A stretch of DNA of 64,000 nt from Saprospiraceae bacterium. Its GTDB lineage: Bacteria > Bacteroidota > Bacteroidia > Chitinophagales > Saprospiraceae. Shown here piece after piece: positions 5,317 to 12,305 of this stretch. The notes below the pieces were generated by a model. The model was given only the letters and a program-made list of their open reading frames with translations. It did no database searches and was not told the origin of the DNA. The position numbers were made by a program, and so were the translations under genes. Every line of letters starts with the position of its first letter. The first letter of the stretch is position 1. The DNA lies in contig JAKVCV010000013.1 in assembly GCA_022448945.1 (NCBI GenBank), positions 156,911 to 220,910 on the forward strand. Direction: 5' to 3'.

Positions 5317-6465
5317 ATGAATTTATATAACGAAGAACATCAACTTTTTAGACAATCAGTAAAGGATTTCCTAAAAAAGGAAGCAATGCCATATATAGAT
5401 GATTGGGAAAAAGCAGGAGAAATACCCCGAACTATTTGGAAAAAATTTGGAGATATGGGTTTTTTGGGTGTAAATATCCCAGAAAAATATGGTGGTAGTG
5501 GGCTTGATTTTGGATATCAGTCAATTCTTGTTGAAGAGACTTCTAAATGTTATTCAGGCGGCTTCAGTGCTGCTATTATAGGTCATATCTCATTGGCTAT
5601 GGTTTACCTTGAACGTTTTGGAAGTGAATATATTAAAGAACGCTATTTGCCGAAGAGTTGTTCTGGAGAATGGTTTGGTTGTTTAGGTGTAACAGAACCA
5701 TTTGCTGGTTCTGATGTTGCTGGAATCAAAACTACTGCTGTTGCTGATGGAGATGACTATATTCTTAATGGTAGTAAAACTTTCATAACGAATGGTGTAT
5801 TAAGTGATTTTTTGATTATTGCTGCAAAGACAAATCCCGAAATGAAATCAGCTGGTATTAGTCTTTTTGTTTTAGATAGATCAATGCCTGGAATATCTGC
5901 CCATAAACTTGATAAGTTGGGCTGGCATGCTTCCGATACTGCTGAAATTTCTATTCAGGATGTTCGTGTACCTGCAAAAAATATAATTGGTGAAGCGGGT
6001 ATGGGTTTTTATTATATTATGCAAAATTTTGCATTGGAAAGACTAATTTTGGCAATTGGAGCTATAACTGCCTGTGAAACAGCTATTGCTTATACCCTTA
6101 AGTATATGTCTGAACGTAAGGCATTTGGTCGTCCAATTAATAAATTTCAGGTTTTGCGTCATAGAATGGCACAACTTGCTAGTGAAACTACTATGTTAAA
6201 ATCTTTTAATTCCACTATTTCAGTTGCTTTCAATCAATCGAAAAATGTTGTTAAAGAGTGTGCTATGGCAAAGTTGCTATGTACAGAGCTATCGGATAAA
6301 GTAATGACTGAGTGCCTACAGTGTTTTGGGGGTTATGGATATATGGAAGATTATAGAATGGCTAGAATGTTTAGGGATAGTAGATTAGGTACTATAGGAG
6401 GTGGCACTTCAGAAATAATGCGCGAATTAATATCTAAAATGGTAATTGATGATGTTAGTTACTAA
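5317..6465 (+). CDS. Acyl-CoA dehydrogenase (first of tandem pair)
   Basis: A full-length (382-residue) FAD-dependent acyl-CoA dehydrogenase. The N-terminal helical domain is followed by the FAD/substrate motif GVTEPFAGSDVAGIKTTA, the middle beta-domain (YILNGSKTFITNG), and the C-terminal helices with ERKAFGRPINKFQ and CLQCFGGYGY. The terminal FAD loop reads TIGGGTSEIMREL, so the glutamate used by MCAD-type enzymes is a glycine. The base is more likely Glu241 in FALERLILA, the helix-G position used by long-chain and isovaleryl-CoA dehydrogenases. It introduces the 2,3 double bond in acyl-CoA and passes electrons to ETF. It lies 66 bases before a close paralogue and probably shares a transcript with it. 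Confidence 0.93.
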   Translation: MNLYNEEHQLFRQSVKDFLKKEAMPYIDDWEKAGEIPRTIWKKFGDMGFLGVNIPEKYGGSGLDFGYQSILVEETSKCYSGGFSAAIIGHISLAMVYLERFGSEYIKERYLPKSCSGEWFGCLGVTEPFAGSDVAGIKTTAVADGDDYILNGSKTFITNGVLSDFLIIAAKTNPEMKSAGISLFVLDRSMPGISAHKLDKLGWHASDTAEISIQDVRVPAKNIIGEAGMGFYYIMQNFALERLILAIGAITACETAIAYTLKYMSERKAFGRPINKFQVLRHRMAQLASETTMLKSFNSTISVAFNQSKNVVKECAMAKLLCTELSDKVMTECLQCFGGYGYMEDYRMARMFRDSRLGTIGGGTSEIMRELISKMVIDDVSY

Positions 6466-6531: not shown

Positions 6532-7695
6532 ATGAAATCATATTATTTTAATGAGGAACATGATATGTTCAGGCAATCTTTAAAGGATTTTCTAAATAAA
6601 GAAGCCATTCCAAATATTACGCAATGGGAACAAGATCGTAGAATACCAAAAGCCTTTTGGAAGAAATTTGGAGACATGGGGTATTTTGGGATCAATTTTC
6701 CAGAAAAATATGGTGGCCTTGATTTGGGTTTTTTCTATTCCGTTGTGTTAATCGAAGAAATTTCTAAATGTTTTTCTGGTGGTTTTGCAATCTTACCCAT
6801 GGTACAGTCTTATATGTCTACTCCTTATATTCTTAATCATGGTTCAGAAGCGCTTAAAGAAAAGTATCTTCCAGGTGCTATAGCAGGAGAGAAGATTTGT
6901 TCTATTGCCATATCAGAACCTGGTGCTGGCTCCGATGCCATGAATATCCAAACTAAAGCCATTAAAAATGGAGATCATTATATAGTTAATGGTAGCAAAA
7001 CTTTTATAACCAATGCTTTTTATGGCGATTTTATGGTAGCAGTTGTAAAAACAGACCCTGAAGCTGGAGTGAATGGCATTAGTTTATTAGTCATTGATAA
7101 TAAATCAGAAGGTGTATCAATGAGGAAGTTAAATAAACTTGGATGGCATTCTTCAGATACTGCTGAGATAAATTTTGATGATGTTGAAGTGCCAAAGGAA
7201 AATTTAGTTGGTGATGAAGGGATGGGCTTTTATTATTTAATGGGAGGATTACAACTAGAAAGATTAGTTGCTGCTGTTGGTGGTTTTGCAGGCTGTGAGT
7301 CTGCACTAAGATACTCGTTACAATATATGTCTGAACGTAAGGCATTTGGTCGTCCAATAAATAAGTTTCAGGTTTTAAGGCATAGAGTAGCTCAGATGGC
7401 ATCTGAAATTGAAGCGCATAAATACTTTACTTATCATTGTTGCAAATTGCATAATGATGGTGAATATGCTGTAAAAGAATGTTCTATGGCCAAGTTATTA
7501 GGCACAGAAATGGCTAACAAAGTTGCTACAGAATGTCTTCAGTTTTTTGGTGGATACGGGTATATGGAAGATTACAAGATGGCTCGTTTTTTCAGAGATT
7601 CTCGTATTGGAACAATTGGGGGTGGAACTTCTGAAGTTATGAGAGAAATTATTGCTAAGATGATCATCGATGGGCAGGAATATGAAGAAGCGTAA
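6532..7695 (+). CDS. Acyl-CoA dehydrogenase (second of tandem pair)
   Basis: A 387-residue paralogue of the preceding gene with the same architecture: SEPGAGSDAMNIQTKA, YIVNGSKTFITNA, ERKAFGRPINKFQ, CLQFFGGYGYMEDY and the terminal TIGGGTSEVMREI. The probable catalytic base is Glu243 in LQLERLVAA, the LCAD/IVD-type position; the MCAD-type glutamate is again a glycine. The two proteins differ most in the substrate-facing middle part, so they probably take acyl-CoAs of different length or branching, which is inference. The DNA around 7324-7360 is identical to the first copy for 35 bases, including silent positions. It is followed by a thioredoxin-like gene after 149 bases. Confidence 0.93.
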   Translation: MKSYYFNEEHDMFRQSLKDFLNKEAIPNITQWEQDRRIPKAFWKKFGDMGYFGINFPEKYGGLDLGFFYSVVLIEEISKCFSGGFAILPMVQSYMSTPYILNHGSEALKEKYLPGAIAGEKICSIAISEPGAGSDAMNIQTKAIKNGDHYIVNGSKTFITNAFYGDFMVAVVKTDPEAGVNGISLLVIDNKSEGVSMRKLNKLGWHSSDTAEINFDDVEVPKENLVGDEGMGFYYLMGGLQLERLVAAVGGFAGCESALRYSLQYMSERKAFGRPINKFQVLRHRVAQMASEIEAHKYFTYHCCKLHNDGEYAVKECSMAKLLGTEMANKVATECLQFFGGYGYMEDYKMARFFRDSRIGTIGGGTSEVMREIIAKMIIDGQEYEEA

Positions 7696-7844: not shown

Positions 7845-8285
7845 ATGGAATTGGAAGATATTAAAGAAAAAAATTATATAGAAAGCTTTGAAGTAAAAAC
7901 CATTAAAGGCGAAACCATTAAATTTGGTGATGGTAGTAATAAACCTACTTTGTTGGTCTTGTTTACTACTTGGTGTTCATCCTGTATGGAAGCAGCGCCA
8001 GCTATAAGTAATAAGTTTTCTCATTTAAAAGGACAAATAAATCTTGTCGGTATAGGTAGGGAGCACAATGCTGAAGAATTAAAAAAATGGGCTGATGTGG
8101 CTGGTCTACATTATGATTTGATAGAGGATCCTGAACGTGAATTATTTAATAGATTTGCAGAATTTCATGTGCCTAGAATTTATTTGATAGCCACTGACGG
8201 TTATGTTACATATCAGGATGTAAACTGGCATCCATTTATGCTGGAGGATATGGAAGAAGCTGTTAATGATATACTTACAAAATAA
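7845..8285 (+). CDS. Thioredoxin-like (TlpA/peroxiredoxin-type) protein
   Basis: A compact 146-residue thioredoxin fold with the redox motif WCSSC (Cys44 and Cys47) after a TLLVLFTTW strand, and a cis-proline loop FAEFHVPRIYLI near residue 108. The sequence resembles TlpA/AhpC-TSA-like proteins, but it has no signal peptide or membrane anchor. That is unusual for TlpA relatives and suggests a cytoplasmic thiol-disulfide role. It is the last gene before a strong terminator, downstream of the acyl-CoA dehydrogenases; whether it belongs to their transcript or serves them functionally is not shown by the sequence. Confidence 0.85.
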   Translation: MELEDIKEKNYIESFEVKTIKGETIKFGDGSNKPTLLVLFTTWCSSCMEAAPAISNKFSHLKGQINLVGIGREHNAEELKKWADVAGLHYDLIEDPERELFNRFAEFHVPRIYLIATDGYVTYQDVNWHPFMLEDMEEAVNDILTK

Positions 8286-8291
8286 ATATAA

Positions 8292-8320
8292 CCACTTCAA
8301 CTCCGAAGTGGCTTTTTTTT
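8292..8320 (+). terminator. Rho-independent terminator after the thioredoxin-like gene
   Basis: A perfect 7-bp stem CCACTTC/GAAGTGG with a six-base loop is followed by eight T residues, starting six bases after the thioredoxin-like stop codon. It closes the acyl-CoA cluster. Confidence 0.9.
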
Positions 8321-8651
8321 GTTTTTTATACAATGGTGATTACTTTGATACTATTTAATATTCTGTAAATTGAAAATAATTTGTTGATATTCTTTTTATA
8401 AGAATTAATGATAGCTAATAAATCTTACGTTTGATATGCTATTTGTAGCTTTGCTGTTGTCTTGATAATTATATATTATGAATTACACCTACCTTAAATT
8501 TATTAAAAAACACCAACAAAAAAGACTTTAAATTACGTTTAGAAATAGTAGGGGAATGATATTACAAATTTATTAACTAATACATAGTCATTATAAAGTG
8601 TTTTTTATTTGATAGAACTTCAACATATCCTAAAATCAAAAGACAGGAAAT
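8321..8651. other. Intergenic stretch before the large outer-membrane gene
   Basis: AT-rich and without a credible ORF. Two TAnnTTTG-like boxes, TACGTTTG at 8426-8433 and TAGCTTTG at 8446-8453, may be -7 elements for the downstream gene, but neither has a TTTG at the usual 19-20 base spacing. Confidence 0.4.
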
Positions 8652-11600
8652 ATAAAAAAGCGATCAAATATATTTTGTTGGATTTACATACTTTTATGTT
8701 TGCAATTCAACAATATTCTGGCACAAAGTGACAGCAGTCAGACAAAGACTCCTCTTAGTAATTGGAGGTCTATCTCATTTGTATCTACTTCTGATACTAT
8801 AACACTTGATACTCACGTTGTTTTTTCTAATTCAGTACAATTAAGAAATTCAAAAGCAGTTGTGCCGGATTCTTGTTATAAAGTAGAAGGTAATTTACTT
8901 GTTTTTTTGAAACCTCAGCGAGATAGTTCTTATCAAGTTACTTATCGTGTTTTTCCCTATCCAATAAACAAAAAAAGACAGCATAAGGATATTAATTTAA
9001 TAGGAAGTTCCCTACAACATGATGGATTGATAGGTAGCGCCTACACCTACAATCCATTTATACTTGGTGGTGAAGCTTTTAATTTTAATGACTTGGACTA
9101 CAGTGGCGTTTTTGCAAGAGGTATTTCATTGGGGAACAGTCAGGATTTAATTCTTAATTCTAATTTTAACTTACAGGCATCTGGTAAGTTGGGTGATATT
9201 GAAATCTTAGCTGCTATTAGTGATAATAATGTGCCCTTACAACCAGATGGGAATACACAGCAGTTGCAGGATTTTGATCGAATTTTTGTCCAATTTAAAT
9301 ATAAAAAACAGAGTCTTATTGCTGGAGATTATAATATTAAAAGACCCAAAGGAAGTTATTTCATGAATTACTATAGACGTTTACAAGGGGGGCAATTATT
9401 TACTGATTTGAAAGCAGGTAAAAAAGGACGTCTTAAAACAGATGCTAGTTTTGCAGTTTCAAGGGGTAAGTTTGCAAGAAATGTATTTATGGGGCAAGAA
9501 GGAAATCAAGGACCTTATAGACTTACTGGTGCTAGTGGAGAACAGTTTATTATTATTATTGCTGGTACAGAAAGAGTATTTATTGATGGTATATTATTAA
9601 CGCGTGGTACAGACAATGATTATGTTATTGATTATAATCTTGGAGAGCTTACGTTTACCCCTAACCAATTAATAACTAAAGATAAAAGGATACAGGTTGA
9701 ATTTAGTTATTCTGATCTAACCTTCCTAAGAACACTTGCTACAGCCAATATGTCTTATGAAACTCAAAAAACTAATATAAGGTTTAATTTTTATTCAGAA
9801 CAGGATGCAAAAGGTCAAACATTGACCGAATCACTTTCTGATTCTGCTAAAGCTGTATTACAACGTGTAGGGGATAATATCGATCAAGCTTTTGTTTCTG
9901 GTTTAAGTATACCTGACCCCAATAGCCAAGGAGTAGGTGCTATTTTTTATATGCTTACTGATACAACTGTAAATGGTATTTATTACGATAGTGTTCTGGT
10001 GTTTTCTAATGATCCAGACTCAGCTATTTATAGTGCTAAATTTGCTTCGGTAGCAAATGGTGGAAATTATATTAGAAATCAGGGTTCTGCAAATGGTGTT
10101 GTATATCAGTGGGTTGCTCCTGATCCTATTACTGGCTCACCAATGGGGACACATGACCCTATACAATTGTTAGTTACGCCAAAGCAACGACAGTTGTTTA
10201 ATTTAGGTATGGATTATAGCATTGGCAAAACAGGGAAAATCTCCGCAGATATTGCTTTGAGTAATGTTGATCAAAATACTTTTTCAGAAATTGGTAATGA
10301 TGATAATCAAGGTGTTGCAGGACGATTGTCCTATAGGCAATCAATCCCTTTGTATTTTGGTAAAAAGTTTAAGATTGACAGTTTGTCTGGCACTGGAAAT
10401 AATAATGATAGTGTTAAGAGTCTTGCAAATAATTATTTTGATATTCAAATGCATTATGAGTATTTGATGAAAGAATTTGAGTTTGTAGAACCCTATCGTC
10501 CAAGGGAATTTGCACGCGATTGGAATATCAATTTACCAGAACCTACTCAAGAACATTTATATAAAGCATTAATTAGACTGAGAGGCACAAAATGGGGTAG
10601 GATCTCATATGAGTTTAGTGGCTTAAATAAAGAAGAGAAATATAGTGGATATAAGCACAATCTTAGTATGAATACGAATTATAAGGGAATGAAATTAATT
10701 GCTAATGGTAGTTTATTACAGAGTAATACGGAAGCTGAAAAGAGCATATTTATTCGTCCTAAAGTTGATTTATCATATACTTTTAAAAAATTATTGAATT
10801 GGAAAATAGGGGCTTTTGCAGAAATGGAACAAAACCAAAGAATAGATATCAGTTCAGATACATTAATGGCTGGTAGTTTTTTCTATAATTTTTTTAAAGT
10901 ATATTCTGATTTACCTGCTTCTAAAAATCTAAATTTACATATTCATTATCTTCATCGTTATGATTATACTCCTACAAGTGAAAGGTTTATGGTTAACTCG
11001 ATTGCTGATGATTTAAACCTTGCTGGTGAGTGGATCCCTTCCAAAGCTTCCAGACTTATATGGAACTTAAATTACCGTAGTCTTTATATTAAGGATAGCA
11101 CCCTTACTAATGAAGAACCAAAGCAGACATATCTTGGGCGTCTTGAATATATTCTTAATGTTAAAAAGGGTTTTATTCGTTCCAACACAATTTATCAATT
11201 GGGATCTGGTCAGCAACAAAAAATTGAGTATAATTTTGTAAAAGTAGACCAGGGGCAAGGTAGTTATATATGGGTAGACAGAAATGGTGATGAATCCGAA
11301 CAGACTAATGAATTTGAATTGTCTAATTTTCAGGATCAGGCTGATTATATTCGTGTAACACTACTAACAGGTCAATTCATACGAACCAATAATGCCCTTT
11401 TTAGCCAAAGCCTTACGATTAGACCAAAAATTCTCATCAGAAACAGTAAAAAAAGAGATAAAAATAAAAAGCTTCCTATAGGACTAGATATTCTAGAACG
11501 TATTTCTACACGTAGTATTTTTAAGATCGATAGAAAAACGTATGATGGAGCAGCGGGGGTGGTTGCTTTTAATCCTTTTCAGTTGGAAGTTAACGATACG

Positions 11601-12305
11601 GCTTTGGTATCTGTAAGTTCTAATCTTCAAAACAATATATATTTTAACAGAACTGGGATTTATAGTCTTGAATTTGCTCAAAGAGATAGCAAAAATAAAA
11701 CACTTTTAAGCACAGGGTTTGAGACTAGGAACTTCACAGAATACATGTTAAGACAACGCTTGAATATAAAACCCGGATCAATAACAAATGGAAAGAAACC
11801 TACTCTAGCAATGCGAAATATAAGGTTGCAAGCTTTATTGACAGGAGCATTAGGATTTCAAGGAAATCAATCTGAATTTTTTCCATCAAGAGATTTTAAT
11901 GTTGAATTTTATCGTTTGGAACCACAGTTTTCTTTTCTCTATAAAAAGTTTTTGAGGGTTATACTTAAATATAAATTTGATTATAAGGAAAATCAAATAG
12001 GTAATCGCGAGCTATTAAGAAGTCATGATGTAACAACGGAAATTACTTATAATAAAACTTCTAAGACGAATATTAGAGCTAGTTTTTCAATTGTTCAAAT
12101 GGAATATAATGGTGATCCTACTTCACCAGTTGGATATACTATGACTCAAGGCTTACAATCTGGTAGTAATTATTTGTGGAAAATAGGAATTTCTCAAGCA
12201 TTATCATCCAGTATACAGATGACAATAAGCTATGAAGGCCGCAAGACGGGCGATGATTCACCAATTATTCATGTAGGTCGCGCAGAAATCCGGGCTAACT
12301 TTTAG
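8652..12305 (+). CDS. Large outer-membrane beta-barrel-like protein, probable ATA start
   Basis: The track starts this ORF at a TTG (8700), which leaves no export signal. Reading upstream in the same frame gives an excellent signal peptide, (M)KKRSNIFCWIYILLCLQFN then NILAQ, if translation starts at the ATA codon at 8652. The frame is closed by TAA at 8631 and contains no ATG in between. The protein is about 1217 residues and dominated by alternating beta strands. It has a repeat-domain-like segment near residue 300 (RGTDNDYVIDYNLGELTFTP), a central region of long amphipathic strands, and it ends in GRAEIRANF, a terminal aromatic as in outer-membrane barrels. I do not recognise a characterised family; an outer-membrane location is inferred from the signal peptide and strand pattern. 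Confidence 0.75.
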   Translation: MKKRSNIFCWIYILLCLQFNNILAQSDSSQTKTPLSNWRSISFVSTSDTITLDTHVVFSNSVQLRNSKAVVPDSCYKVEGNLLVFLKPQRDSSYQVTYRVFPYPINKKRQHKDINLIGSSLQHDGLIGSAYTYNPFILGGEAFNFNDLDYSGVFARGISLGNSQDLILNSNFNLQASGKLGDIEILAAISDNNVPLQPDGNTQQLQDFDRIFVQFKYKKQSLIAGDYNIKRPKGSYFMNYYRRLQGGQLFTDLKAGKKGRLKTDASFAVSRGKFARNVFMGQEGNQGPYRLTGASGEQFIIIIAGTERVFIDGILLTRGTDNDYVIDYNLGELTFTPNQLITKDKRIQVEFSYSDLTFLRTLATANMSYETQKTNIRFNFYSEQDAKGQTLTESLSDSAKAVLQRVGDNIDQAFVSGLSIPDPNSQGVGAIFYMLTDTTVNGIYYDSVLVFSNDPDSAIYSAKFASVANGGNYIRNQGSANGVVYQWVAPDPITGSPMGTHDPIQLLVTPKQRQLFNLGMDYSIGKTGKISADIALSNVDQNTFSEIGNDDNQGVAGRLSYRQSIPLYFGKKFKIDSLSGTGNNNDSVKSLANNYFDIQMHYEYLMKEFEFVEPYRPREFARDWNINLPEPTQEHLYKALIRLRGTKWGRISYEFSGLNKEEKYSGYKHNLSMNTNYKGMKLIANGSLLQSNTEAEKSIFIRPKVDLSYTFKKLLNWKIGAFAEMEQNQRIDISSDTLMAGSFFYNFFKVYSDLPASKNLNLHIHYLHRYDYTPTSERFMVNSIADDLNLAGEWIPSKASRLIWNLNYRSLYIKDSTLTNEEPKQTYLGRLEYILNVKKGFIRSNTIYQLGSGQQQKIEYNFVKVDQGQGSYIWVDRNGDESEQTNEFELSNFQDQADYIRVTLLTGQFIRTNNALFSQSLTIRPKILIRNSKKRDKNKKLPIGLDILERISTRSIFKIDRKTYDGAAGVVAFNPFQLEVNDTALVSVSSNLQNNIYFNRTGIYSLEFAQRDSKNKTLLSTGFETRNFTEYMLRQRLNIKPGSITNGKKPTLAMRNIRLQALLTGALGFQGNQSEFFPSRDFNVEFYRLEPQFSFLYKKFLRVILKYKFDYKENQIGNRELLRSHDVTTEITYNKTSKTNIRASFSIVQMEYNGDPTSPVGYTMTQGLQSGSNYLWKIGISQALSSSIQMTISYEGRKTGDDSPIIHVGRAEIRANF

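Follow-up and report, generated by a model that had tools for sequence, protein, structure and literature searches.

A gene for a very large SprA-like outer-membrane protein, lying in the 64,000-nucleotide stretch of Saprospiraceae DNA analysed here (the window), appears to begin on an ATA codon, and a near-cognate start (ATA or ATT) recurs throughout a clade of relatives. By computation, the N-terminus of the protein falls at ATA 8652, the near-cognate codon is conserved, alternative starts are absent and the initiator tRNA of the genome is ordinary. We put at roughly three in four the chance that this ATA is a genuine, selectively maintained start that throttles translation, probably through discrimination by IF3.

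The reading frame and its N-terminus

The original prediction described a frame closed upstream by TAA at 8631 and continuing from ATA 8652 into a signal peptide running from KKRSNIF to NILAQ, all of which is present as described. From 8634 the frame reads AAT CAA AAG ACA GGA AAT, then ATA (8652), then AAA AAG CGA TCA AAT ATA TTT TGT TGG ATT TAC ATA CTT TTA TGT as far as TTG (8700), and then CAA TTC AAC AAT ATT CTG GCA CAA. Translation from ATA 8652 gives (I/M)KKRSNIFCWIYILLCLQFNNILA followed after cleavage by Q, a textbook signal peptide with the end NILAQ, and the open frame closes at TAA 12303–12305. TTG 8700, which had been noted as a start yielding a protein without a signal, indeed sits within the hydrophobic stretch of that peptide. 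No in-frame ATG, GTG or TTG occurs in 8634–8699, nor is there an ATG in any frame in the 200 nt upstream of ATA 8652 in the window genome. Thus no ATG, GTG or TTG start fits the conserved N-terminus, which is one mark of a conserved non-NUG start.

Table 1. Features of the SprA-like gene and its upstream region (window coordinates).
Feature	Position	Strand	Evidence or remark
SprA-like gene for a putative giant outer-membrane beta-barrel	8652..12305	+	1217 codons plus stop; 56 of the 61 genomes searched, the window genome among them, carry homologues
Proposed initiation codon ATA	8652..8654	+	ATA in G000, G001, G003, G005, G006 and G007; context score 3.4
Signal peptide M(ATA)KKRSNIFCWIYILLCLQFNNILA, cleavage before Q25	8652..8723	+	Sequence; charged, hydrophobic and A|Q-ending regions recur in relatives
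In-frame stop TAA bounding the N-terminus	8631..8633	+	Sequence
TTG mechanical start	8700..8702	+	Inside signal-peptide hydrophobic region; not conserved in relatives
Segment matching SprA profile TIGR04189 positions 604–656	9555..9719	+	24.9 bits, E 3.9e-6
A-rich leader with A at -3, no conserved Shine-Dalgarno	8627..8651	+	Context matrix; no unusual structure
Bidirectional terminator-like hairpin	8290..8313	.	After upstream thioredoxin-like gene

A SprA-like protein distinct from SprA

We call the encoded protein SprA-like, not SprA. Its likeness to SprA/Sov (TIGR04189), the type 9 secretion translocon characterised by binding of PorV/Plug and transport of T9SS cargo, consists of a weak shared motif (profile positions 604–656), found in almost every homologue at scores well under the SprA cut-off, and of the top rank among fold matches. 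In the window protein the match falls short of the family cut-off of 200 bits for a 2319-position model, which places the protein outside SprA/Sov, and neither a Pfam family nor a relative in the PDB by sequence was found for it. Its AlphaFold2 model (pLDDT 71, pTM 0.57) contains dozens of long beta strands, in keeping with a predicted giant outer-membrane barrel. The first four Foldseek ranks are all SprA structures (8gl6, 8gl8, 6h3j, 6h3i; E 3e-11 to 7e-9), with TM-scores by query length of only 0.22–0.25. Unlike SprA/Sov, the protein is about half as long (1217 vs about 2400–2500 codons), and a separate, true SprA is encoded elsewhere in the same genome (C3, 2408 bits). The SprA-like family, which lacks a Pfam entry, is widespread in Bacteroidota and KSB1, with homologues also in records named Aureispira, Saprospira, Owenweeksia, Chitinophagales and KSB1.

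The SprA orthologues themselves start with ATG (MNLK/MNFK) in the eight genomes of the genus that were examined; there is thus no general avoidance of ATG among giant-barrel genes of the genus. One SprA (L139) had seemed to lack an NTG start; an ordinary ATG was found further upstream.

Start codons across relatives

The window genome (G000; 4.35 Mb in 73 contigs) has relatives that include records named Aureispira. Reading the 5′-ends codon by codon, we find ATA at the aligned start in all six distinct genomes listed for it in Table 1 (that of G005 read on the same contig as locus L032). In G004 and G008, near-identical genomes that represent one lineage, ACA occupies the aligned position, and two codons upstream stands an ATT with the best-scoring start context there (4.0). 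We give modest weight to this ATT as a moved start, since ATT is common in AT-rich DNA and could have arisen there by chance. An ML tree of 32 homologues unites the eight genomes that have ATA or ATT in a single clade (support 100/100), so that none of the branches sampled within it has lost a near-cognate start. Outside it branch G002 as sister, then Aureispira Cli_1, then Saprospira grandis. G002 uses ATG, so a non-ATG start is not universal in the genus; Cli_1 (L033) has no NTG ahead of the hydrophobic stretch and would start on ATA or ATT; and the S. grandis homologue starts with TTG.

Two possibilities raised by the original prediction do not survive this comparison. A single-base sequence error at 8652 is refuted, because the same ATA is present in five other genomes, each sequenced independently, where the same error could not turn up again; and an ATG-to-ATA change specific to this strain is excluded, because the other seven clade members have no ATG at the aligned codon. 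The alignment of homologous 5′-ends that it proposed as a check favoured instead a conserved near-cognate start, and its remaining reading, that ATA is the genuine and presumably inefficient start of this large outer-membrane protein, is strengthened by the same ATA in relatives to that of a putative near-cognate start conserved across the clade.

The relatives hold further variety. The ATG of G002 (L085, around 9164), the one ATG start of this gene in the genus, has a very poor context (a score of -11 with the matrix from the window genome), and across it runs the frame of an out-of-frame ATG 13 nt upstream, which ends 86 nt inside the gene; together these are perhaps another way of holding initiation low. 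Among homologues outside Aureispira (L011–L041), the start seems to be TTG or GTG in a large share (e.g. L016, L019, L022, L023, L025, L027, L034), which would agree with a family-wide preference for weak initiation.

Selection at the codon and at the coding boundary

The start ATA of the window genome is ATA in 5/5 comparison genomes, whereas each of its 27 internal ATA codons is ATA in at most 2/5 relatives, and 18 of them in none; viewed from G006, 14 internal ATA codons are common to at most three relatives. This contrast exists against a background of heavy synonymous change: by NG86, dN and dS are 0.049 and 0.959 for G006–G001, 0.067 and 1.74 for G004–G006, and 0.13 and 2.3 for G003–G006, with dS saturated in wider pairs (overall dN 0.05–0.29, dS 0.96 to saturation). 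Judged from these sequences, the conservation of ATA 8652 follows the pattern that an initiation codon would show, not that of an ordinary isoleucine codon; we attach no probability to it because the compared species are related. The pairwise alignments of G006–G001, G001–G003 and G006–G003 also carry frame-breaking indels of 1–2 nt some 10–20 nt upstream of the ATA, and downstream of it the same alignments stay in frame.

Leader, start context and controls within the genome

The start context was scored with a position matrix trained on 219 ATG starts of the window genome alone and applied to other genomes too. Starts in the window genome are A-rich both upstream (-14 to -2) and downstream of the start codon, and Shine-Dalgarno-like strings are depleted at them (2.7% vs 6.9% of random sites). 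ATA 8652 scores close to the true-start median (3.7), a level reached by 2.4% of random sites, whereas the alternatives score -4.1 (ATA 8670) and -0.04 (TTG 8700); a start at ATA 8670 was rejected on this score and on its non-conservation. The matrix supports the place rather than the exact triplet, because two non-start triplets just upstream in the window genome (ACA and GGA) outscore ATA 8652, and the ATA context in G005 and G007 reaches only -0.3 to -1 by the window genome's matrix. No conserved Shine-Dalgarno was found at the ATA/ATT starts, the leaders of which are A-rich, as expected in Bacteroidota, and RNA structure around the ATA is nothing unusual (z 0.33). Bacteroidetes initiate without Shine-Dalgarno pairing and favour A at -3, as observed in Flavobacterium johnsoniae (PMC6847099), and the context of ATA 8652 fits this.

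How exceptional the gene is within its genome can be gauged from a scan, confined by its nature to exported proteins, for signal peptides encoded ahead of any NTG codon. In stretches of the window genome that add up to 856 kb (about 20%), 611 open reading frames reach at least 120 codons, and the ATA 8652 frame is the only one of them with a signal peptide ahead of every NTG, an arrangement that is more than chance; none was found among 298 frames (400 kb) of G004. With no further case in these roughly 900 frames of the two genomes, use of ATA starts across the genus was rejected as far as exported proteins are concerned. A codon-usage score for sequence ahead of the first NTG is uninformative once TTG and GTG are allowed, because signal-peptide codons are untypical.

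The initiator-type tRNA of the window genome carries the ordinary CAT anticodon, and an altered initiator tRNA was rejected, the CAT match being the only one in that genome. Elsewhere, initiator-tRNA-like anticodon arms that carry GAT or AAT instead of CAT are seen at L175 (G002:C42:35624-35636) and L164 (G039:C1:639-651), and may be chance. In all nine genomes of the genus (L050, L052–L059) the infC gene opens with TTG GCT or TTG GCA, and none of them has an ATG at the conserved infC N-terminus; this TTG is a weak start that would fit autoregulation of IF3.

Gene neighbourhood

Terminator-like sites number three in 8200–8760, compared with 0.1 expected in shuffles, and given the hairpin listed in Table 1 the SprA-like gene probably has its own promoter in 8314–8651. 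A thioredoxin-like gene precedes it in the window genome, where the hairpin lies between the two, and in G007, while a ClpA/B-like ATPase gene is directly upstream in G001, G003, G004, G005, G006 and G008. The window genome has only distant Clp relatives of this ATPase and no close counterpart. The conserved ATA cannot be put down to translational coupling with a single partner, since the species have different genes upstream. The ClpA/B-like protein, which has two ATPase domains and about 752 aa, is encoded 16–195 nt upstream in the six relatives (L080, L081, L082, L083, L086, L087). Further upstream in the window, two adjacent and similar acyl-CoA-dehydrogenase-like genes (5317–6465 and 6532–7695, so named by sequence) are followed by the thioredoxin-like gene, and the same order occurs in G007 (L084).

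Alternative explanations

The alternative that deserves most discussion is that the ATA is genuine but tolerated, transcription setting expression and initiation on AUA being good enough in a lineage without Shine-Dalgarno pairing. We consider this improbable, if by no means negligible. The flanking context is like that of ordinary starts, and initiation in Bacteroidota depends on leader composition (PMC6847099), both of which suit a tolerated codon; yet ATA to ATG takes a single transition, which the clade has not fixed although its synonymous sites are saturated, no other such start occurs in the 611-frame sample, and AUA starts measured elsewhere give about 10–30% of AUG (PMC13009471). Much less credible, at a few per cent, is translation from somewhere else, whether from TTG 8700 without a signal peptide, from an upstream start in another frame by way of a frameshift, or by ribosomes reading through from the preceding gene. 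Such a reading can point to TTG 8700 as the mechanical start and to G003, where 16 nt separate the end of the upstream ATPase gene from the ATA and the stop of that gene is in frame with the ATA. Against it, relatives do not share TTG 8700, several of them lack any NTG within or close to the signal peptide, and the type of signal peptide is conserved. In none of the eight clade genomes does a frame opened by an upstream out-of-frame ATG extend as far as the ATA, and the upstream gene varies between species, the ATPase being absent from the window genome. Isolated candidates in relatives fare poorly as well: in G003 an ATG 12 codons in is not conserved and would give a signal peptide without positive charge, and G001 has a longer open frame in which ATG and TTG codons occur farther upstream, but in poor contexts (-2 to -11).

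The rarity of ATA starts is all that speaks for a recent ATG-to-ATA mutation or a sequencing error, and, since five other distinct genomes share the codon and none of the other seven clade members has ATG at that position, we regard either as having a vanishingly small chance. Equally hard to credit is gene decay with loss of the start codon: a canonical start is indeed lacking, but the frames are intact at 1208–1217 codons in all clade members and dN lies far below dS (0.05 vs 0.96).

Comparison with known near-cognate starts

To our knowledge, few conserved non-NUG starts in bacteria have experimental support, and we found no report of a conserved near-cognate start in Bacteroidota in the openly licensed literature. 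The closest parallels are infC genes with AUU, AUA or AUC starts, such as the AUA of Staphylococcus aureus infC (PMC13009471), which share with the window gene a near-cognate isoleucine codon, one base from AUG, in a normal frame. In contrast, infC encodes IF3 itself and is autoregulated, with an extended Shine-Dalgarno in S. aureus, whereas the window gene encodes a predicted outer-membrane barrel and has none. The conserved AUA of Staphylococcus ccpN and AUU of cvfC1 are similar in kind and give less output than AUG in reporters; the AUA starts of infC and ccpN, and AUA/AUU starts in S. aureus generally, reached about 10–30% of AUG (PMC13009471). These are Firmicutes genes for a cytosolic regulator or a small protein, the site being picked by extended SD–anti-SD pairing, whereas the window gene is from Bacteroidota, has an A-rich leader without Shine-Dalgarno, and encodes an exported protein of 1217 codons. 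The GTC start of Streptomyces sigR (PMC5472188) is likewise a genus-conserved, non-canonical start missed by annotation and a brake on dosage, which for the window gene we infer; it differs in its codon, its strong ribosome-binding site (AGGAGGTG) and its repression by IF3 shown by experiment. A strong or extended Shine-Dalgarno, usual in characterised non-NUG starts but not strictly defining them, is absent at ATA 8652.

A proposed brake on translation and its significance

We hypothesize that selection keeps the near-cognate codon, AUA or in one lineage AUU, as a fixed brake. The codon would be read by the ordinary initiator tRNA (CAU anticodon), and the site would be selected without Shine-Dalgarno pairing, through an A-rich, unstructured leader, A at -3 and the lack of a competing ATG nearby. 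IF3 lowers initiation on non-NUG codons, and its discrimination would make initiation on this AUA rare, so that weak initiation would yield small amounts of a very large SprA-like barrel. A plausible benefit is that a low dose of the giant barrel could spare the outer-membrane assembly machinery. We infer the inefficient initiation, the mediation by IF3 and the benefit of limiting the dosage of a large barrel, and dependence on IF3 is by analogy only, because infC of the genus itself starts with TTG. A more specific proposal, which we hold tentatively and think somewhat doubtful, is that AUA in particular, rather than any weak codon, has been kept so that translation of the SprA-like barrel responds to IF3 activity or growth state without Shine-Dalgarno pairing. 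If this were true, leader composition alone would select and tune a near-cognate start.

Gene finders allow only ATG, GTG and TTG starts, and would therefore cut off the signal peptide of this SprA-like family in Aureispira. The characterised non-NUG starts compared above lean on strong Shine-Dalgarno pairing, whereas ATA 8652 sits in a phylum that does not use it, and the gene thereby opens to experiment the way in which ribosomes locate a near-cognate codon by nothing more than leader composition.
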